Shown here: one piece after another, positions 159-53,050 of the stretch
Layout of the letters: each line of letters starts with the position of its first letter
Numbering within the stretch: the stretch's first letter is position 1
Origin: Bolinopsis microptera
Taxonomy: Eukaryota; Ctenophora; Tentaculata; Lobata; Bolinopsidae
DNA: 64,000 nt
Assembly (NCBI RefSeq): GCF_026151205.1
Contig: NC_087079.1
Location: 2,637,730 to 2,701,729 of the forward strand
Direction: 5' to 3'
Notes under the pieces: generated by a model
The model's input: the letters and a program-made list of their open reading frames with translations, nothing else
Told to the model about the DNA's origin: nothing
Databases searched by the model: none
Program-made: the position numbers and the translations under genes

Positions 159-279
159 GACGATATGTCAATATGTGACTGACAAACATTGCACTAAAAA
201 CATACCGCTACTGCCTACTCGTGTATACAATATATAATATATATATATATTTATATCATTCCTAACTTTCTCAAACTAG

Positions 280-3803
<3,524 letters not shown>

Positions 3804-3804
<1 letters not shown>

Positions 3805-4199
3805 ATAGGATTCCACAACATTGCGTGGCTATCGTGACTCAATTTTGTGACAAAGGGTCAGGACAGACGGGCCGTGACTCGAGCCGTGACAACTCTCACG
3901 AAGAGTCACGAAGTGCCAAACAGACTGTGAGATTAGACTGAGGATTCATTAAAATTACCCATCATCTGTGTTCCTGGAATTTTAAAACACTCCAAAAACA
4001 AATGCTTGAATATCGATGAAAAGGAAGTAAACGGTGTAGACGAAGTGAAGCTTAGCAAATGGTTCAACATCGAATGCCTGGAGGTCGCATCAATAAAAAA
4101 GCTATGGACAGAAGCCTGCATTAAAGAAATGAACCCTTGTGTAGTTTCTTCCTAGTTTTAAAAATATATATGACGCTGATGAATAATATTCCCCTTCCA
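3804..4199 (+). repeat. Dispersed 0.4-kb repeat, copy 1
   Basis: About 390 bases nearly identical to 7028-7430, beginning CATAGGATTCC and ending near GCTGATGAATAATA. Copy 1 abuts the hexanucleotide array directly. Both copies share the same orientation and, over the coding-like part, have no indels. Origin unknown; no terminal inverted repeats seen. Confidence 0.8.
3937..4155 (+). CDS. Open frame inside the dispersed repeat (exon-like, no Met start)
   Basis: A 72-codon open frame preceded by ATTAG (possible splice acceptor at 3932-3936) and ended by TAG. It contains LPIICVPGILKH and GVDEVKLSKWFNIECLEV, Lys- and Glu-rich and protein-like in composition. The matching frame in copy 2 (7162-7380) is the same length but has two Trp-to-stop changes. 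I do not recognise the family. It may be the last exon of a multi-copy gene or part of a mobile element. Confidence 0.3.
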   Translation, partial: TEDSLKLPIICVPGILKHSKNKCLNIDEKEVNGVDEVKLSKWFNIECLEVASIKKLWTEACIKEMNPCVVSS

Positions 4200-7027: not shown

Positions 7028-7430
7028 ACATAGGATTCCAAAACATTGTGTGGCTATCGTGACTCAATTTTGTGACAAAGGGTCAGGACATACGGGCCGT
7101 GACTCGAGCCGTGACAACGCTCACGAAGAGTCACGAAGTGCCAAACAGACTGGGAGATTAGACTGAGGATTCATTAAAATTACCCATCATCTGTGTTCCT
7201 GGAATTTTAAAACACTCCAAAAACAAATGCTTGATTATCGATGAAAAGGAAGTAAACGGTGTAGACGAGGTGAAGCTTAGCAAATAGTTCAACATCGAAT
7301 GCCTGGAGGTCGCATCAATAAAAAAGCTATAGACAGAAGCTTGCATTAAAGAAATGAATCCTTGTGTAGTTTCTTCCTAGTTTTTTTATAAATACAACGC
7401 TGATGAATAATAGGCCCCCGCACCCTTCCA
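7028..7430 (+). repeat. Dispersed 0.4-kb repeat, copy 2
   Basis: Same unit as 3804-4199. Substitutions dominate the differences. The surrounding bases are unrelated to those of copy 1, so the unit itself was copied. Confidence 0.8.
7162..7380 (+). pseudogene. Broken version of the repeat-borne open frame
   Basis: Colinear with 3937-4155, same 219-base length. TGG became TAG at 7285-7287 and at 7330-7332, giving two internal stops. Confidence 0.4.
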
Positions 7431-8040
7431 GCAATTCAATGAAACTAATAAATCAATGAAACTAATAAATCAATGTTTTAGCTCATTTTACAAAGTCAAA
7501 TATTTAAAACAATTAAAATTGTATAGTGCTCAATTTGTAAATGACTAGTTGATCTTTGCTATTGGAAGTTTGTCAAGGACTGGCAGCTAGCGGGGCAAGG
7601 AATGCACGGGCTTAGGGGCTTTTGTGCACACCAGAACACTAGCTCGGTAGATTTTTGGAAACTAGAAGGACTGAAAACTAAAATTGTTTTTGATGGAGGC
7701 TGAGGCATGTTTTTGAGAGGGACGGTATAATAGCTTGTGGTAACAACTGGCCTTTACTTTAATAGGATGAAGTTTTAGTTTTAGGACAGGAAGAAGGCAT
7801 TAAGAAGATTTGCTCTTTGTTTACAAGGCAGAATATAAGCAATGTTGGTTATAATAATAAATATAATTGGATCCTGCCATCTAATATGTTAATTAAATGT
7901 TCATAAATATGGATTATGGAGAATATTAAGATTACATTCACACATAGCTGAGCATCATGAGAGAAGTGGAAAACAAACAAACGAATAGATTTTAAGCTCG
8001 TAAAGAATCGTCGCTTGAGATCGGAGATTTCAAAACTCTA
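7431..8040. other. Non-coding, nothing recognised
   Basis: AT-rich with a short local duplication of AATGAAACTAATAAATC near 7438-7470. No splice sites joined to an open frame were found. Confidence 0.5.
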
Positions 8041-8245
8041 GTTCGACAGTCGAAGTTCTCTTGTCGAATTTTAGTACGTGTCGAACTTGAATCCAGGTAG
8101 CGCACTTTAGCTTTAGTTCGACAGAGTCGAACCTTAGGGTTTGTAAAACTACAGTACGTGTCGAACTACAGTACGTGTCGAACTAGAGTGCGTGTCGAAC
8201 TACAGTACCTACGTGTCGAACTAGAGTGCGTGTCGAACTTGAGTA
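8041..8245. repeat. GTTCGAC / GTACGTGTCGAAC motif cluster
   Basis: At least eight copies of TCGAAC or GTTCGAC within 200 bases, several in the form AGTACGTGTCGAACTA, in both orientations. The same motif cluster recurs at 62379-62520 next to a MITE end, so this is a recurrent repeat family. Confidence 0.75.
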
Positions 8246-8590
8246 ATTAATATGTGTACCTATAAGGTGACGATTGCCCCGATCTTTTGGTTTCAGCTCT
8301 ACCCCCTAGGCCCTAAGTCATGAGTAGAACCGAAGGATCAAAATACATTTTGCTTGTTGCTCGAATTAACTATAAAACATCAATTTTGATGGATAAGGAA
8401 GTATTTATAGGTTCTGAAACCTAGTTAAATCGATTTCTCGTGCAATTTTAGGTCAAGTACAGTCATCAAAATGAGTTAATAACAAGGTCGATTTCTCGGT
8501 TATTTTTAAGCTTTCGTTCAGAAAATAATTCCTTCAAAGGGGGGTAACAAGAAGGAGTTAAAAGCGTTACAAGCGTTCCATAGTACAAAA

Positions 8591-8762
8591 TGTGCATCAC
8601 CTCTTTTCTCTGCTGAGCAGGTACTTACTATTAAAGTAGACAAATGTGCATCACCTCTCTCCTCTGCTGAGCAGGTACTTACTATTAAAGTAGACAAATG
8701 TGCATCACCTCTCTCCTCTGCTGAGCAGGTACTTACTATTAAAGTAGACTAATGTGCATCTC
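8591..8762. repeat. 54-bp minisatellite, three units plus a partial
   Basis: Units start with TGTGCATCACCTCTCTCC at 8591, 8645 and 8699, with a partial at 8753. Each holds CTGCTGAGCAGGTACTTAC, which looks like a splice-donor-like GTACTT but belongs to no seen exon. Confidence 0.9.
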
Positions 8763-9106
8763 CTCCCCACGAGAATCCACATCTATATTTTCCATAACTG
8801 ACCACTTTGAGAACGGTTATTGAAATTGATATGAGTTTCTTTTGTTTGGAAAAAGGAAGCACTGGCGAAGGTCCACTAGCTAACCTACCCTCCATTCCGT
8901 GATAAATTAATTCGTGACTAAGAGTACGGTTTCCAAAGTGATCACGTTCATCGAGCACAGTAGCTTACACGTGATCTACCTGCCCATATTCAATGTGAAC
9001 GCGTGAATGAGAGCAACTATAACACCCCGTCAGGCTCAATCCTCACTTTTAAATTTTCCAGTTTAGATTTTATCAATTAAGGTATAGTGTTTCTGTTTTC
9101 TCCATC

Positions 9107-12100
9107 ATGAAGATGTTATCGCTAGTGCTCATCGTGATCGCTTGTTTTTCAGTTGCTGAGTCCGCGTGTAAGTTTTGCTTATTTTTATTTCAAAATAAAT
9201 CTGTTCTTTATTAAGAAGCTGTTTTACTATATCACTCGCCAAGGATTTTTTAAATGTTTGTAAAAGGGCGTGTATGTGAGTATAAAAGTACAATCTTAAT
9301 TGTACGAGAAAGAGATATGCAAAAAAGTACTTTTAACAATAAGATCGGAATACTATTCACGAGTCACATTTGTAAATATACTGCTGAATATTCGAATTTT
9401 CTGGTATTATCATTATCACGTTTAGTTGAAACTGAAAAGATAACATTACAATATTTCTCAGTCGGAGATGGGAAATTGTTAGCAAACCTTTATAAAGATA
9501 GACTTAGTAACGGTGATGGTATAACAGAGATTTTTGAAGGTGAGTCTTGATGATTTATAACCCATCAAATTAATGTTCTCATGTATTTATCTGGTTCAGC
9601 ATACCTAATCAGTGCGCTTGCAAGTACTCCGTTGCTGTTACAGAAGTTCAGCCCCAAATTGTGTAACAAATCCGACGTGTTACATAGGTTTTGGAGTTGC
9701 TAACATTACGACAGCACTATATTATGACTAGATTATTGTTAGAGTTAGGATCAAGTAGGGTTAGGGGTATTGTTAGAGTTAGGGCCATTATAGAGCTGTC
9801 GTAATAATAATAGTGCTCAGATGCGACAATAATACTGCTCGCGGGTTTTATTATTGCGGTTAAAAATAATCAATAATGGCGGGTTAAAATATGGTGGAAT
9901 TTCCGAAAACCGCCGAATTTAACCGGCCATTATTAAACAAACTAAGTTATTAAATACAATGATAACAATAATTACATTGATTACGGTAACATTTCTGCAG
10001 GTATACTGAATGATCTAGTTCAGAAAGCGATCCAGTGCAGAAAGGACAATGCCGATGATATTGCTAATGTGAATGGAGGTAAGATTCATGGTCTGCAGTT
10101 TTGACCCGATTATGACAAATCTATTGATATAATATTATAGATTACTTGAGAAATGATAAATAAAGTAAAAGTGGTTCTACCGAACTTCGATTCGATAGAA
10201 ATAGAAAACAACAAATGGAATAAATTGAACAAATGACCATAAAATTAAGGGGGGGGGCCAATGGATATTTTTTTGTGAAACTTGATTTCGAGATAGCAGT
10301 TGACCAACAAACTAGGACCAGTGACCGAACTTTTGAGGGGGTCCCGGACCCTAACCGCCAAACGGTGCCTGCGGGGCAGCCACGCCCATATTTGGTCCAA
10401 ATTAGGCCCAATTTAGCCAAATACCCTGAACATGCCCAAAACCCAAATTTTAGGTGCTCTACTTGTAGCTAGTGGTCTCCTGAACTCGTATATGAAATTT
10501 CATCAAGATTGGACAAAAAATGACTGAGTTATGAGCCAAAAACCATATGCCCATATTTGGGCATACGCACCAAATTTGGTAGATTTCGTCCCATAAATTG
10601 GTCAAATATCAATATTTTTCACTGAAACTTACTTTATATGAAAGGTAAGCCTAAACTACATATTCTCTGTAAGTTATAGCTTTATATCTGTTTAAATGTG
10701 GATACTAAGGCGAAAAGACCACAAAAAATGAACTAAATTGCCCATATCTTGGTTCGCGATATTCGCGGAATTGATCTCATTAAAATTGTAACAACTCGAT
10801 CAGTTTTCAAAATTTTTCCATGAAATTTTCGGAATCGACTCGAAATCGCATTTCCACCTTAGTTTGAGAACAGATTTTTGATTTAGGCCTCCAAAAAAAA
10901 TTGGCGGCCAAATTCCAAACTTTTCCCGGAGAAATTCAGAATTTGGCCGCCAAATTTTTTTTGAGGCCTTAATCAAAAATCTGTTCTCAAACTAAGGTGG
11001 AAATGCGATTTCGAGTCGATTCCGAAAATTTCATGGAAAAATTTTGAAAACTGATCGAGTTGTTACAATTTTAATGAGATCAATTCCGCGAATATCGCGA
11101 ACCAAGATATGGGCAATTTAGTTCATTTTTTGTGGTCTTTTCGCCTTAGTATCCACATTTAAACAGATATAAAGCTATAACTTACAGAGAATATGTAGTT
11201 TAGGCTTACCTTTCATATAAAGTAAGTTTCAGTGAAAAATATTGATATTTGACCAATTTATGGGACGAAATCTACCAAATTTGGTGCGTATGCCCAAATA
11301 TGGGCATATGGTTTTTGGCTCATAACTCAGTCATTTTTTGTCCAATCTTGATGAAATTTCATATACGACTTCAAGAGGCCACTAGCTACAAGTAGAGCAC
11401 CTAAAATTTGGGTTTTGGGCATGTTCAGAGTATTTGGCTAAATTGGGCCTAATTTGGACCAAATATGGGCGTGGCTGCCGCGCGGGCACCGTTTGGCGGT
11501 TGGGGTCCGGGACCCCCTCAAAAGTTCGGTCACTGGTCTTAGTTTGTTGGTCAACTGCTATCTCGAAATCAAGTTTCACAAAAAAATATCCATTGGCCCC
11601 CCCCCTTAAGCAGAATCGGAAATGAGTTTTATAAAACCATTAATTCATAATTCCATAACTTTTGATGAGATGTTTTAAATTTTCTTTATGGTGCAACAAT
11701 AGCTATTTAACCACATAAGGTTGTGTTGATATCATTACATTACATTATAAAGTAGTACATTAAGTACAATAATCCACCAGATTTTGTCAAAGAAGTCGTT
11801 CAACGCTGGAAGGATCAGACTCTGTTCAAACCGGAAGATGATACTGACCAAGGAGGTAAGGAATTTTACTTTGCATAATCTTATAAAATTAATTTGATTC
11901 ATTTAATGTAGAATTGTTTCAAACTTAAGTTAGTTAACTACTATACAGGTTTTAACCCGATTTATGAAAAAGTTATTAAAAGCAAATAACAATTATGTTA
12001 TTATGTACTCCAAGTCCAATAGCTCGAGAGTGACCAGCGCTGGTCACATGGCCAGCGCTGGTTTAATACAATAATTAAGTGCTCTAATTTCGTGTTACCA

Positions 12101-15100
12101 TGGTTACTTCCCACCAGCAATGATAAGGAAGGCTATTGCTGCGTATAAAAACCAAGTAAACGGTGTCGAGGTTACATATGAGGAGGGTAGTGAGGAAGGT
12201 GAGTAATTTATTTTGCAGAGTCAGAAATAAAATATGATTTCAATTAATTCTCTTCTTAAATACCACAGTGAAACCTCTATATACCAGGCCTCTCGGGCCC
12301 CTATATATACCAGGCCTCTCGGTATATCGAAGTACCCGGTATAGAAAGGCACGGAGTATATAGGTTTAAATGTATATTATATACATACTTCTTTGGCTAT
12401 AATTTAACGTTTGTGAAAAGACAAGACAAATCGAAACTACATTTAAATGCAATAAATTTGAGAAATTATGAAAAACAAAGAGTAAATTACTCCCTTGCAG
12501 GTGCCAAAATCAAAGCCATGGTTGCTAAGATCGCGGAAGTGGTGACCTGTTTAAAGGAAGCAGCGGCCACGAAAGTTGCTGCCGCCGGTGAGTCTTAATG
12601 ATCTAAAATAACTATAAAATATATAAGTTGAACTGTTGTGCACTGTGTGTATCTGCTTCAGTATACCAATAGTAGAAGCTGATTGGTTTATAGTTGCCAC
12701 GTGTCAAAACAGATGCCTCCCACCACAATCCACATTTATATAACATTAATATTAACAACTCTTAATAGGTGTACGATTTCCCAATTTGAGAGCACGCTTC
12801 AGAAAGAATAAAGCTGCTGCTGATGCCGCTGGTGAGTCTTGATTTGTATTAAATACTTTTAAAACTGCATAGCGTATCAAATTACAAAGGCCCGTTATAC
12901 TTATACGAAATTTTTGATTTTAAAAACTATAAAATACGAAATTCTAACTGTAGTGCTTTGTGCGAATCTTTACACTTATCGGATAAATTTAACATTTAGA
13001 ATGGCTCGTTAGTCCCCATTTGCCCTCAACTACTAGTACTAAGTACGCAGAAAATTTCATTGAAAGTCAATAATTTGAACTATTATAGGCATGTGAAATA
13101 TCATATGCCTATCTCAAAAGTTCTTCCAGTGAAAATATTCAAAAGTCAAATTGTGAAAAACGTGGTCCATCTCGTGCGAACTTTCTTAAATATACACTCA
13201 TCTTACACTCATCGGGCAAATTCTAATGTTGAATTATCCTCACGAGAATTATAAGTTTTTTACTCGTAGCGTACCCAAAAGAATTCTAGTTCTACTCTTG
13301 CCCTTAAGATCATAATGAATGTACATCAATGTACACCAACACATATCTATTGTTCCATAATATGCAACAATTATCATTAAAGAGTTGGCTATTAGTATTA
13401 CATTTATAAACGCTGACCGAGCCCTTGTGCTTTGGGAAAAAATACCGGACCCCAGCTTTTAGCTAATCAACTAATGTTAAATTGAGTTGGAAAATTTGAA
13501 TTTTGACATTTGGAAATTTACGGTCGCTTACTTTGGTCATACAGATTTTTTCTAAATTCTGAGAGCACATAACAGTATAATCATCAAAGATGTGTTATAT
13601 GCATTAAGAAAAGGTTCACGAAAAATAAAATTCATACTCAATCTCAATTAGTCTCAATCTTATTTTTAAAACGTAAGTTTTACTTAATCTATATCGTCTC
13701 TCGGTCGTAATTCTTGTTAGAAGCAAGAGACGGTTCAATTAACTTTATTAAAATCGGGCTTTTTAAAAGTAAGATAACAGTTATTTTTAGCTCTACTTTT
13801 AAGTTTAACAGGTGATATTCATAAAATATTTGTTCCAAATATTAGACCGTTGACGAGCTTAACTCAGCGCGCGTCTTGGTAGGTTATAAACCTACAAGCT
13901 CTCTTATACTAGCTGTGCTCATAAAGTTATAAAATGATTAACTCATTAAGTGAACAAAAGCCACTCCTGCATCAGCATGTAGGGGAAGCTGGGGTTAAAT
14001 GAAACACCAGGGTCAAATGAAACACGGCTATATCTCTAGTACTATTAACTTGTCATGGCTTAAAACAGGCGGGATCGACTTCTATTGAATTACCTATTAC
14101 ATATACCTTTCCTAGAATATATGAGAAAAGTTGATTATAGAGTTACAATCTACTTCCTCTCCACTTCATCTTTCCCTAGAATGTTGCGCTTAACATTTGT
14201 TACCTCTGTGCTTGAACCAATTACATTTACCGAATGTTTCTTGATTTAGTCTTCAACATTAATGATCGTATTTAAGTATTCTAGTGGTTTTTAAGCATAG
14301 GAACATACAATTAACATGCTGTATTGAAAAACTCTCACCATATACGATTTGGTCAAATGAAACAGTACCCCTTAGGGTCAAATGAAACATCTAATTAAAT
14401 AAACAATTATTGAATTTTAATGAATGAAGTGGGTTGATAGTGTTTAGAACGTTCTTAAGAGCTTGTGTACCCAATATGAGTATATCCCAATGTATGGTAT
14501 TGATGTTGCATCCAAAAGTTTGTACCCGTTTCATTTGACCCTTACTTCCCCTACAGTTCTCAACCTGTAGGGGAAGTCATTTGACACTGAGGAGGCCTGT
14601 TTCATTTGACCCTGGTAATTTGAAATGCAGTATTTCTTAGGGTCAAATGAAACATCTAATTAAATAAACAATTATTGAATTTTAATGATTGAAGTGGGTT
14701 GATAGTGTTTAGAACGTTCTTAAGAGCTTGTGTACCCAATATGAGTATATCCCAATGTATGGTATTGATGTTGCATCCAAAAGTTTGTACCCGTTTCATT
14801 TGACCCCTACTTCCCCTAGTGTGATTTCACGTGCAAAATCAATATTTGATTTTCAGCTTTTTTGCTGTTGAACTATTGTTGAATGTTGATGGCGAATGTT
14901 GATGGCGAATATTGATGGCGAATGTTGATGGTGAATGTTGATGGCGAATGTTTTAGCCTCTGAAAAGATGACCTTTACCACTGAGTTGCAGCGAGCTCTT
15001 ATTAAAAGCTTATAAATGTATTAAAGTATTAGAAACACACACCACACACCGCAGTCCACTAAAAAATTCCGTAGAATCACACTCTCCAGTCTCCTCTTAC

Positions 15101-15185
15101 ACACAGTTCAACTGATCCATTATTATTTATTTGTCTATTTCCAGAACAAATTTTACCCACTTTGAAAACAATAGTACCCTCATGA
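9107..15185 (+). CDS. Secreted modular protein built from phase-1 mini-exons
   Basis: Proposed exons: 9107-9167, 9462-9539, 10001-10078, 11781-11855, 12118-12198, 12501-12587, 12769-12831 and a terminal exon 15145-15185. Every intron is GT-AG and phase 1; the summed length is 564 bases (187 residues). Exon 1 is a signal peptide (MKMLSLVLIVIACFSVAES). Each internal exon of 63-87 bases encodes one segment of 21-29 residues beginning near Gly, Asp or Ala, for example ILNDLVQKAIQCRKDNA, DFVKEVVQRWKDQTLF, AMIRKAIAAYKNQVNG, AKIKAMVAKIAEVVTCLKEA and VRFPNLRARFRKNKAAA: Lys/Arg- and Ala-rich, mostly amphipathic-helix-like, some with acidic tails. The donors after 9539, 12587 and 12831 share GTGAGTCTTGAT-like starts, which suggests exon duplication. 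AATAAA follows the stop at 15199. Function unknown; a secreted multi-peptide or host-interaction/antimicrobial-like product is inference only. Equal phases allow exon skipping without frame change. Confidence 0.65.
9872..9934. repeat. Hairpin, 17-bp arms
   Basis: Arms AATAATGGCGGGTTAAA and TTTAACCGGCCATTATT (one mismatch) around 29 bases, in an intron of the mini-exon gene. A second inverted pair (TTACGACAGC / GCTGTCGTAA) flanks GTTAGAGTTAGG repeats at about 9708-9805. Likely remains of a small foldback element. Confidence 0.6.
10245..11609. mobile_element. 1.37-kb near-perfect palindrome with TTAA ends
   Basis: Two arms of about 660 bases are near-perfect reverse complements around a 30-base centre near 10927 (TTCCAAACTTTTCCCGGAG). 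The ends read TTAA then a G run and GGCCAATGG, mirrored at the right as CCATTGGCC, a C run and TTAA. TTAA is the target site of piggyBac-type elements; whether these are true target duplications is inference. No transposase is encoded; the short frames over the arms mirror each other. It lies in the intron between the third and fourth exons of the mini-exon gene. A diverged relative of one arm is seen at about 27030-27360. Confidence 0.85.
12266..12367. mobile_element. Short pogo/Tc1-like MITE remnant
   Basis: Starts CAGTGAAACCTCTATATACC and ends GGAGTATATAGGTTT, imperfect terminal inverted repeats of the kind seen in pogo/Tc1-type elements. About 100 bases, in an intron. Similar one-sided phrases occur near 15845 (TTAAACCTCGCTAAAACG) and 54461 (CAGTTGAAACCTCTCTTATT). 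Confidence 0.4.
13721..13768 (+). other. Candidate extra mini-exon of the modular gene
   Basis: Flanked by a pyrimidine-rich acceptor (TTCTTGTTAG) and a strong donor (GTAAGA), open in the required phase 1 at both ends, and encoding ARDGSINFIKIGLFK. A further phase-compatible acceptor follows at 13812, opening 22 codons to a TAG at 13880. Neither is needed for the gene model; RNA data would decide. Confidence 0.3.
13979..14554. mobile_element. TIR element with own motif GGGTCAAATGAAAC, copy 1
   Basis: Ends GTAGGGGAAG and CTTCCCCTAC are inverted repeats, followed inward by GGGTTAAATGAAAC and its reverse complement. The motif GGGTCAAATGAAACA recurs inside (13999, 14351, 14375) and inverted at the right end. 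No coding potential. It lies in the last intron of the mini-exon gene. Confidence 0.75.
14567..14818. mobile_element. TIR element with own motif GGGTCAAATGAAAC, short copy 2
   Basis: Begins GTAGGGGAAG 13 bases after copy 1 and ends CTTCCCCTAG. Its right 183 bases (14636-14818) are almost identical to 14371-14553 of copy 1, so it is a deletion derivative or a partial tandem copy. Confidence 0.75.
14881..14953. repeat. Short tandem repeat, GAATGTTGATGGC units
   Basis: Five imperfect units of GAATGTTGATGGC and variants, directly before the candidate terminal exon at 14957. Confidence 0.8.
14957..15015 (+). other. Candidate alternative terminal exon of the modular gene
   Basis: Acceptor AATGTTTTAG, phase 1, then 19 codons to TAA (SEKMTFTTELQRALIKSL). 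The segment LQRALIKSL resembles the helical segments of the upstream exons. ATTAAA follows at about 15019. It would give a 193-residue product instead of 187. Confidence 0.35.
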
Positions 15186-15198
15186 AGATCAACCAAAA

Positions 15199-15204
15199 AA
15201 TAAA
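15199..15204 (+). terminator. Polyadenylation signal of the mini-exon gene
   Basis: AATAAA 14 bases after the stop at 15183-15185. Very short 3' UTR implied. Confidence 0.45.
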
Positions 15205-18248: not shown

Positions 18249-20063
18249 TCAAATCATCAGTAGTTGCCCAGTAAATATTTTATGATAGAACGAGTCTGTG
18301 TATAAAATGTCCCACATAGTTATATTACTGAACTTTCTGGCCCCTTTCAACTGAGATTTAGTGTCCGTTAATTCTGCAGAGCACGTGATCAGTTCTTCTT
18401 CAGTTCGGTTAGATCTGGCGGTTACAGTCTCCAGGCTTTCTCTAGTCCTACTCAACTCTTCTTTAGTTCGGTTAGATCTGGCGGTTACAGTCTCCAGGCT
18501 TTCTCTAGTCCTACTCAACTCTTCTTTAGTTCGGTTAGATCTGGTGGTTACAGTCTCCAGGCTTTCTCTAGTCCTACTCAACTCTTCTTTAGTTCGGTTA
18601 GATCTGGCGGTTACAGTCTCCAGGCTTTCTCTAGTCCTACTCAACTCTTCTTTAGTTCGGTTAGATCTGGCGGTTACAGTCTCCAGGCTTTCTCTAGTCC
18701 TACTCAACTCTTCTTTAGTTCGGTTAGATCTGGCGGTTACAGTCTCCAGGCTTTCTCTAGTCCTACTCAACTCTTCTTTAGTTCGGTTAGATCTGGCGGT
18801 TACAGTCTCCAGGCTTTCTCTAGTCCTACTCAACTCTTCTTTAGTTCGGTTAGATCTGGTGGTTACAGTCTCCAGGCTTTCTCTAGTCCTGCTCAACTCT
18901 TCTTTAGTTCGGTTAGATCTGGTGGTTACAGTCTCCAGGCTTTCTCTAGTCCTGCTCAACTCTTCTTTAGTTCGGTTAGATCTGGTGGTTACAGTCTCCA
19001 GGCTTTCTCTAGTCCTGCTCAACTCTTCTTTAGTTCGGTTAGATCTGGCGGTTACAGTCTCCAGGCTTTCTCTAGTCCTACTCAACTCTTCTTTAGTTCG
19101 GTTAGATCTGGCGGTTACAGTCTCCAGGCTTTCTCTAGTCCTACTCAACTCTTCTTTAGTTCGGTTATGTCTGGTGACTTCGTACTCAAGACTAACTTCA
19201 GTGCTATCTAGCTCTTCATCTGTTCGGTTTAGCTGCCCTGTTACTGTGTGTAACTCTTCTTGTGTGCTATTTAATAGACCTGTTGTTGTTTTCAGGTCAT
19301 CATTAGTTCTGTTAAGTTGTCCTTTGACCGTATCCAACTGTTTTCTCATCATTCTTAATTCTTTTATCAAATAACAGTCAATTCCAACTTCGACCACTAA
19401 CCCAGTTCTTGACTTTTCCAGTACGTCCTCCCAGCGAAGTGTTCTACTACCAATAGTCTCCTCTACTTCAGCACACAAACCCCCGTATGCTATTCTTTTT
19501 ATCGTACCCGAGCTGAGTATTTCATTATACAGATTAAATCTGTACAACTGACCACCAAATATCCAACTACTACCGGCACTGTAACCCAGTCTATTAAACC
19601 ACACAGTCCCGCTAGCGTGCAGTTCTCTCCAGTTCCCGGATGAAGTCTGGCCGCTAGCTGCTAGTTCCCCGTCCAGGTAGATCTGAATAGTCCGTGAGGA
19701 GGAGGACCAAGTCAGACAATAATGGAACCATTGTCCGGCCGGGGTAGTGAATTTACTGTGTGAGTTCTCTAAAACCCCATCACCTAGTACTCTGTTGTAT
19801 TCCCCGACAGATCCAGTCAATATCTCGTAAGTAGTAGAGCTGGTTTGGTAATGAAACACGACTGGGTAGGAGGATGAGGTGTACACTCTCTTAATCCAGG
19901 TACACAGGGTTAAAGCATTACGGAACGGGGACATATTGTGGCTGAAGCTTATGTAGTCGCTTGAAGTGGTCCCAAACTGCAGGGCAGTGTACTTTCTGTC
20001 CACTGTTTGAGCAACGGGAGATACAATGCAGAATGTGAGAACGAATAGGAAAAACATTTTCAA
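18249..20063 (-). CDS. Secreted pentraxin/LamG protein with 21-residue coiled-coil repeats
   Basis: A 604-residue frame. Residues 1-20 are a signal peptide (MKMFFLFVLTFCIVSPVAQ). Residues about 25-205 form a pentraxin/laminin-G fold: ALTLCTWIK, GQWFHYCLTW, IQIYLDGELAASG and GGQLYRFNLYNEILS, with Cys pairs in the usual places. From about 235 the chain is helical; about 12 nearly identical 21-residue units (NRTKEELSRTRESLETVT plus A/T-R-S) follow. Twenty-one residues is three heptads, so a continuous coiled coil is expected, and each unit carries an NRT N-glycosylation sequon. A tail with FSNITMWDILYTDSFYHKI follows. Role inferred: a secreted, oligomeric lectin-like or matrix protein. Start chosen at the Met of the signal peptide; the 3' end may be spliced further (see 17871-18100). 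Confidence 0.8.
   Translation of the reverse strand: MKMFFLFVLTFCIVSPVAQTVDRKYTALQFGTTSSDYISFSHNMSPFRNALTLCTWIKRVYTSSSYPVVFHYQTSSTTYEILTGSVGEYNRVLGDGVLENSHSKFTTPAGQWFHYCLTWSSSSRTIQIYLDGELAASGQTSSGNWRELHASGTVWFNRLGYSAGSSWIFGGQLYRFNLYNEILSSGTIKRIAYGGLCAEVEETIGSRTLRWEDVLEKSRTGLVVEVGIDCYLIKELRMMRKQLDTVKGQLNRTNDDLKTTTGLLNSTQEELHTVTGQLNRTDEELDSTEVSLEYEVTRHNRTKEELSRTRESLETVTARSNRTKEELSRTRESLETVTARSNRTKEELSRTRESLETVTTRSNRTKEELSRTRESLETVTTRSNRTKEELSRTRESLETVTTRSNRTKEELSRTRESLETVTARSNRTKEELSRTRESLETVTARSNRTKEELSRTRESLETVTARSNRTKEELSRTRESLETVTARSNRTKEELSRTRESLETVTTRSNRTKEELSRTRESLETVTARSNRTKEELSRTRESLETVTARSNRTEEELITCSAELTDTKSQLKGARKFSNITMWDILYTDSFYHKIFTGQLLMI
18395..19165 (-). repeat. 63-bp coding tandem repeat, 12 units
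   Basis: Encodes the 21-residue coiled-coil unit. Units differ by GCGGTTACAG versus GGTGGTTACAG-type (Ala/Thr) and TACTCAAC versus TGCTCAAC changes, with blocks of identical neighbours, so the array expanded recently by unequal exchange and copy number probably varies between alleles. Confidence 0.95.
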
Positions 20064-20520
20064 CTTTCAAGTCAGAAATAAAACTAGGGTTGATTTCTCG
20101 AGACTGTATTCACGAGGTTAACAGGAAAATGTAATCTAGAGAATCTGAGGAGCTACAGTTATTACTGCAAATGTGAATTTTACCAGAACCGGAAAAGTTG
20201 TAGCGTTATATAATCTAGCAAGGTGGCACGACAAAGCCCAGCTGGTATTAACTAGAAATATGACGATTTATCTTACATATTCTAATATTTATCTTACACA
20301 TTCTGTATGTTAATACCTGGATTCACCAGAAGTTCATTAACGTAAATGCCGATAAAATTGCCATCGAGTGATTAGTGGACTTTTTACGATTATATGGTAC
20401 AGAATATTGTCTCAGATGCTACGCTACTCGATAGTCGATAAATTAACAATATTTTTGGTGGCGCAGTTCCAACTTTTTGAAATAGCCCTCAGATGTGTTA
20501 AATTAGACATTTCGTCACCT
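20064..20520. other. 5' flank of the LamG gene
   Basis: AT-rich, no open frame of note and no clear TATA box. Confidence 0.4.
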
Positions 20521-51095: not shown

Positions 51096-52108
<1,013 letters not shown>

Positions 52109-52687
52109 GGCTATATCTCTACGGCTATATCTCTACGGCTATATCTCTACGGCTATATCTCTACGGCTATATCTCTACGGCTATATCTCTACGGCTATAT
52201 CTCTACGGCTATATCTCTACGGCTATATCTCTACGGCTATATCTCTACGGCTATATCTCTACGGCTATATCTCTACGGCTATATCTCTACGGCTATATCT
52301 CTACGGCTATATCTCTACGGCTATATCTCTACGGCTATATCTCTACGGCTATATCTCTACGGCTATATCTCTACGGCTATATCTCTACGGCTATATCTCT
52401 ACGGCTATATCTCTACGGCTATATCTCTACGGCTATATCTCTACGGCTATATCTCTACGGCTATATCTCTACGGCTATATCTCTACGGCTATATCTCTAC
52501 GGCTATATCTCTACGGCTATATCTCTACGGCTATATCTCTACGGCTATATCTCTACGGCTATATCTCTACGGCTATATCTCTACGGCTATATCTCTACGG
52601 CTATATCTCTACGGCTATATCTCTACGGCTATATCTCTACGGCTATATCTCTACGGCTATATCTCTACGGCTATATCTCTACGGCTA
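52109..52687. repeat. 14-nt minisatellite GGCTATATCTCTAC, about 41 units
   Basis: Essentially perfect units over 579 bases. Because 14 is not a multiple of 3, each frame reads the same 14-residue cycle (GYISTAISLRLYLY) with no stop, which creates long spurious frames. Confidence 0.97.
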
Positions 52688-53050
52688 AATGTTCACAACC
52701 GGACCAAACACTGGCGAGCATTTCCCAGAGCAGAACAAGACAGCAGAAGAGAGCAAAACAACAAAACTCAGCTCCCACAGATGTGCAACAGCCATTTCCT
52801 CTACTCGGAGAGGGATGAGATGCACGACCTATATCATTCGCTCTGCACGCTGGTAATTAGTGATTACCACGCAGATTTCCAGGGTAATTAGAGATCTGCA
52901 AATCACTGGAACTCATGTGGCCATTCTGTGTAAGAGTTCTGGAGAATCAGTTAAAGATAGTCGCAAACAAAACGGTTATCGGAGACGTTTGGACTTTTGG
53001 AGGCTCTTTCTCTTTCTCTCTGCTAAGGTCGACGGTCGCTGGCCTCCTGC

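Follow-up and report, generated by a model that had tools for sequence, protein, structure and literature searches.

The 64,000-nucleotide stretch of the Bolinopsis microptera genome analysed here (hereafter, the window; contig NC_087079.1 of assembly GCF_026151205.1) contains, on the forward strand between positions 9107 and 15185, a candidate gene of eight exons whose joined coding sequence forms a 564-nt open frame of 187 amino acids. All seven introns begin with GT and end with AG, and all seven interrupt the frame in phase 1. The first exon (e1, 9107–9167) carries the start codon and a signal-peptide-like segment, MKMLSLVLIVIACFSVAESA, judged by eye, and ends in phase 1. It is followed by six small internal exons that are symmetric, with phase 1 at both ends: e2 (9462–9539, 78 nt), e3 (10001–10078, 78 nt), e4 (11781–11855, 75 nt), e5 (12118–12198, 81 nt), e6 (12501–12587, 87 nt), and e7 (12769–12831, 63 nt). 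These mini-exons supply 462 of the 564 coding nucleotides. The last exon (e8, 15145–15185, 41 nt) ends with a TGA stop codon, and a polyadenylation-like signal, AATAAA, lies at 15199–15204 on the same strand. The exon coordinates, sizes, and uniform phase proposed in the initial annotation were thereby reproduced in an open model. Both alternative forward frames contain stop codons in five of the six internal exons, the remaining one, e4, having one alternative frame open, and e5 has a possible alternative donor, also in frame, 9 nt upstream of the modelled one. The exon layout and phases, like the coding signal and the duplication traces in donors and introns described below, are read directly from the sequence.

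Other features flank this gene in the window. About 340 bases 5′ of the start codon lies a 54-bp tandem repeat of 3.3 copies (8588–8765). A large open reading frame (ORF) at 198–3941 contains LDLa domains according to Pfam, is apparently 7TM by eye, and continues into a long EQ repeat in which several frames are open on either strand. On the reverse strand, a secreted-looking ORF (18249–20066) combines a Laminin_G_3/pentaxin-like domain with many subsequent repeats of about 20 residues of the NRTKEELSRTRESLETVT type, and a tandem repeat reading YGYISTAISLRLYL, with three overlapping open frames, occupies 52000–52891.

Coding potential was scored with a codon model trained on 2054 codons from other ORFs of the window (LDLa-containing, FKBP15-like, and Laminin-G-like). 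The spliced coding sequence reached a codon LLR of 35.4 in the modelled frame, compared with −4.5 and 14.5 in the two remaining forward frames and 12.7, 10.3, and −12.7 in the reverse frames, and the frame is supported because this value exceeds the best-frame value of every one of 1000 background stretches from the window (maximum 18.4). Each of the six mini-exons scored positively (4.7, 6.5, 6.8, 4.6, 6.2, and 4.3 for e2 to e7), with e1 being weak (2.0) and e8 negative (−2.6). Additionally, a naive scan for splice-bounded open segments of 45–105 nt was run across the window plus a total of 200 kb of flanking sequence. In the gene region, 6301 bases of forward strand yielded seven phase-1 candidates, or 11.1 per 10 kb, compared with a background density of 1.48 per 10 kb (264 kb read on both strands, 528 kb in all, the gene included). 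When non-overlapping candidates of the same phase were counted, the stretch containing the gene came first among 408 stretch-by-phase counts, with six; these comprise five of the mini-exons and a segment at 13721–13768 that is within chance expectation. The exon missing from the scan is e4, because its acceptor fails the pyrimidine rule. The only rival cluster and next best count, five candidates on locus L029, counted in two phases, was rejected as a 405-bp tandem repeat: at positions 7036–8721 of that locus, a splice-bounded open segment of 66 nt recurs five times without change, spaced 405 bp apart.

The peptides encoded by the six mini-exons can be aligned on a common 12-residue core, in which hydrophobic residues recur at helix-like spacing, followed by K-[DNE]. 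The score of this core was reached by none of 700 shuffles and by four of 700 rotations or reversals; it was also reached, in its raw form, by 280 of 400 window sets taken from a coiled-coil ORF and by 15 of 300 from a mixed set, and its rotation-corrected z-score by six of 70 coiled-coil sets. Because coiled-coil controls reach the score, the peptide-level support for a repeat is weakened, and we regard it as only moderate and suggestive. The mature protein, taken as residues 21–187, is neutral, with 25 K+R, 25 D+E, and a pI of about 6.6. Its segments had been described as mostly basic and amphipathic, a description that neither property bears out: the net charges of e2 to e7 are −2, −1, −3, −2, +3, and +5, so that e2–e5 are net acidic and only two of the six, e6 and most strongly e7, are basic, and the hydrophobic moment does not exceed that of an exon's own shuffles in any case (p 0.07–0.90). 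The mature protein contains just two cysteines, Cys59 in e3 and Cys141 in e6, and since both occupy the same column of the core, a single disulfide between equivalent units would be allowed.

Clearer signs of shared origin lie in the DNA around the exon ends. As had been remarked, three donors have a common start, GTGAGTCTTRAT. In its extended form, the pattern GGTGAGTCTTRATGAT has exactly two matches in the whole assembly (264,652,675 bases in 232 contigs; 264.65 Mb), namely the donors of e2 (GGTGAGTCTTGATGAT, 9539–9554) and e6 (GGTGAGTCTTAATGAT, 12587–12602), both on the forward strand, and the reversed pattern used as a control has none. Similarity continues into the introns: on the forward strand, the start of intron 6 (12595–12654) resembles a block in intron 7 (12911–12969), a likeness reached by none of 4000 simulations (Gumbel 1.5e-5; 21 intron pairs tested), and its beginning also resembles intron 2. 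Because 21 pairs were tested, two further similarities are borderline, that between introns 2 and 6 beyond position +6 (10 of 4000 simulations as good) and that between introns 3 and 4 (eight of 4000, and out of register). An earlier alignment, whose gap costs were too lenient for most pairs, had likewise placed e2/e6 and e6/e7 at the top (empirical 1/1001 each). Three other pairs that had appeared among the most similar, e5/e6, e1/e2, and e4/e5, were rejected as artefacts of overlapping units. As is expected under tandem exon duplication, the similarity of exon–intron units exceeds chance; that of the exons themselves is weaker and mixed. Shuffles as good as the observed exon DNA likeness numbered one of 300 for e3/e4, none of 300 for e3/e7, and 10 of 300 for e6/e7, and for e2/e6 the exon DNA is not alike, as 240 of 300 did equally well or better. 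The earlier suggestion that exon and donor had been duplicated together is borne out by the donor string found only at e2 and e6 and by the like starts of introns 6 and 7. On these comparisons, duplication of the donor and intron start is well supported for e2, e6, and e7; that all six exons descend from a single one is plausible but not proven.

We consider it reasonably probable that the gene encodes a secreted helical-repeat protein, probably lineage-restricted, which arose, at least in part, when a mini-exon of symmetric 1-1 phase was duplicated in tandem. The alternative that survives best, and that we nonetheless judge unlikely, is a plain helical secreted protein in which the likeness among the peptides reflects helix composition, and duplication or conversion affected only the donor and intron pieces at e2, e6, and e7. 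It is favoured by the coiled-coil controls, which attain the peptide score both raw and by z-score, and by the unlike exon DNA of e2 and e6, but it sits poorly with the failure of shuffled peptides, and of nearly all rotations, to reach that score, and with exon DNA that is more alike than shuffles in e3/e4, e3/e7, and e6/e7.

The favoured account of a duplicated helical unit also has to be set against a combinatorial gene, in which mini-exons would be skipped or included in many combinations to yield a pool of secreted variants, as in the micro-exon genes (MEGs) of schistosomes. Every internal exon is symmetric, and 27 of the 28 possible forward joins between exons keep the frame without a stop; it had been proposed that any combination would do so, which is true except for the direct join of e1 to e8, where a stop codon is created. 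The alternative donor of e5 and the segment at 13721–13768 in intron 7, a 48-nt in-frame candidate for an optional exon, point in the same direction. However, exons with one phase in common are compatible in this way whether or not the joins are ever used, and the candidate extra exon does not rise above chance. Combinatorial splicing would be possible as far as the frame is concerned but is unsupported, and we rate the combinatorial gene as quite unlikely.

Searches for relatives bear on whether the gene model is sound at all. With two protein queries, no other locus was found in the assembly among at most the best 40 candidates scored, and six queries with DNA stretches, which within intron 7 lay outside 13021–14999, returned only the locus itself and dispersed intronic or upstream repeats, the best 40 of 1921 and the best 40 of 186 candidates having been scored in two of them; one of the DNA queries failed to report the similarity between introns 6 and 7 within itself. 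Because this first look was limited to at most 40 scored candidates, diverged paralogs may be missed. In the window plus a total of 200 kb of flanking sequence, tblastn with the exon peptides found no second gene, only weak matches (best E 0.52, to e1), and what blastn matched with the gene were dispersed or internal repeats. Pfam gave no match above its curated cut-off (best hit 15.7 bits, where 23.5 is the threshold), and matches to PDB sequences were at chance level (E 0.61 and E 0.26). A literature search for three of the core peptides found no mention of them, and among the literature matches listed for ctenophore mini-exon, precursor, and exon-duplication genes, nothing had this layout, which is no proof of absence. 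Cnidarian and sponge proteomes, which had been recommended as search targets, are probably the wrong ones, as the host is a lobate ctenophore. The failure to find homologs in the assembly, Pfam, and PDB, together with the weak e8 and a large element within intron 3, would fit a locus that is decaying or a model in which some exons are false; the maintenance of the frame across seven introns and a codon LLR above all background stretches argue against this, and we hold a non-functional gene or a wrong model to be improbable.

A last alternative, a precursor cleaved into several basic or regulatory peptides, draws on the signal-like first exon and the basic e6 and e7 but is highly improbable because the protein contains no KR, RR, or KK and just three RK pairs, each inside a core and none after Gly. 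Nor do dibasic sites separate repeated peptides, as they would in a neuropeptide or prohormone. A combinatorial source of peptides, one of the two functions initially proposed, draws no positive support from this distribution of basic pairs, and the other, a secreted helical protein of several segments, fits.

The duplication account of a helical-repeat protein can be spelled out as follows. A symmetric phase-1 mini-exon would, at least in part, have been duplicated in tandem along with the beginning of the intron that follows it, so that each of the six exons would now represent one short unit, consisting of a probably helical core of about 12 residues and a tail of polar or small residues that would carry the exon junction. 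All exons would most likely be spliced in order into one transcript, whose product, once the signal is cleaved off, would be secreted with a length of about 167 residues. The units may then pack or polymerise as a small helical-repeat protein in a secretion, in mucus, or in matrix, where a disulfide joining Cys59 and Cys141 could hold them. We infer splicing, secretion, helicity, the disulfide, and the site of action from the features of the gene. A role in gland cells or colloblasts would be one guess among several: in Mnemiopsis, candidate genes of colloblasts and tentacles are described as enriched in signal peptides, and the colloblast set as enriched in ctenophore-specific genes as well (PMC6278862, 2018). 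These candidates offer a possible setting only, the likeness being that of a ctenophore gene with a signal-peptide-like exon.

The layout recalls several known systems. Extracellular modules of class 1-1, such as EGF, Ig, and LDLa, combine a signal exon with symmetric exons of phase 1-1, for which tandem duplication is possible, and the gene described here, with its signal-like first exon, is built similarly, but the present units are only about 21–29 residues long, contain two cysteines in the whole mature protein, and have no Pfam match above cut-off. Schistosome MEGs are described as encoding secreted, fast-changing, lineage-restricted proteins from a signal peptide and mostly very small symmetric exons (PMC4350168, Philippsen et al. 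2015); they form 25 families, are restricted to platyhelminths, have secreted or membrane-anchored products, and are alternatively spliced into variants. The present gene would resemble them in general design: its first exon is signal-like, judged by eye, and 462 of its 564 coding nucleotides lie in small symmetric exons. Unlike MEGs, it was found as one gene rather than 25 families, and its host is a ctenophore, outside their platyhelminth restriction. Its exons also measure 63–87 nt, and MEG micro-exons are smaller than this. In aphid bicycle genes, many small internal exons of the same phase, almost all phase 2, encode divergent proteins tied to secretion, with an average of about 17 exons per gene, and gene structure is reported to be more informative than sequence (PMC9168663, 2022). 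The resemblance lies in many small single-phase internal exons in a divergent, secretion-linked protein, and the difference in a family with phase 2 in aphids versus phase 1 (seven of seven introns), eight exons, and one locus here. We assign the gene to neither group, because its host is a ctenophore rather than a flatworm, the exons are larger, and the phase is 1 rather than 2. The principle of a signal exon followed by small, single-phase symmetric exons in a divergent secreted protein is already known from both, and the initial statement that no family has this layout was too strong, given what is described for MEGs (PMC4350168) and bicycle genes (PMC9168663).

If transcripts confirm the model, the gene would add one more lineage to those known to assemble secreted proteins out of mini-exons that share a phase, and it would bear on the origin of lineage-specific secreted proteins in an early-branching animal phylum. 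Signs of exon duplication are still visible in it, among them a donor string absent elsewhere in the genome, and, once confirmed, it would permit a direct comparison of exon and intron divergence after duplication. The best local intron pieces are identical at 30 of 35 positions for introns 2 and 6 and at 42 of 55 for introns 6 and 7 (local alignment selects the best-preserved pieces), while the core DNA of the same exon pairs is near chance, with 11 of 36 nt for e2/e6 and 12 of 36 nt for e6/e7, a contrast that is not easily accounted for. The opposite pattern occurs in e2/e7, whose cores share 18 of 36 nt while introns 2 and 7 match little past the donor. It is conceivable, at low probability, that the exons diverge faster than the introns, in a diversifying secreted protein that gains new helical units through exon duplication and rapid change; that this has, moreover, arisen in a comb jelly independently of the flatworm MEGs and aphid bicycle genes is part of the same rather doubtful proposal. 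Gene conversion or partial duplication could also leave introns better preserved than exons, and it is because of this, the bias of local alignment, and the counterexample of e2/e7 that rapid exon diversification is given little weight.

Two introns also contain repeated sequence outside the coding gene. The element in intron 3 (10245–11609) is a dispersed, near-perfect palindrome of 1365 bp, with 682-bp arms that are 98% complementary and separated by a 1-nt spacer, and has TTAA at both ends. Among the best 40 of 1921 candidates scored, it occurs at least 40 times in full or near-full length, this copy included, on all of contigs C1–C13, to which the hits of the genome searches are confined, and with 96–100% identity; the TTAA ends are present at seven of eight loci checked and absent in L004. 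It looks like a recently active, non-autonomous element of the piggyBac type, and in the pre-mRNA it could fold into a hairpin of about 680 bp. In intron 7, sequence of the GGGTCAAATGAAAC type (13970–14820) is present in direct and inverted copies, including a 191-nt direct repeat of 97% identity.
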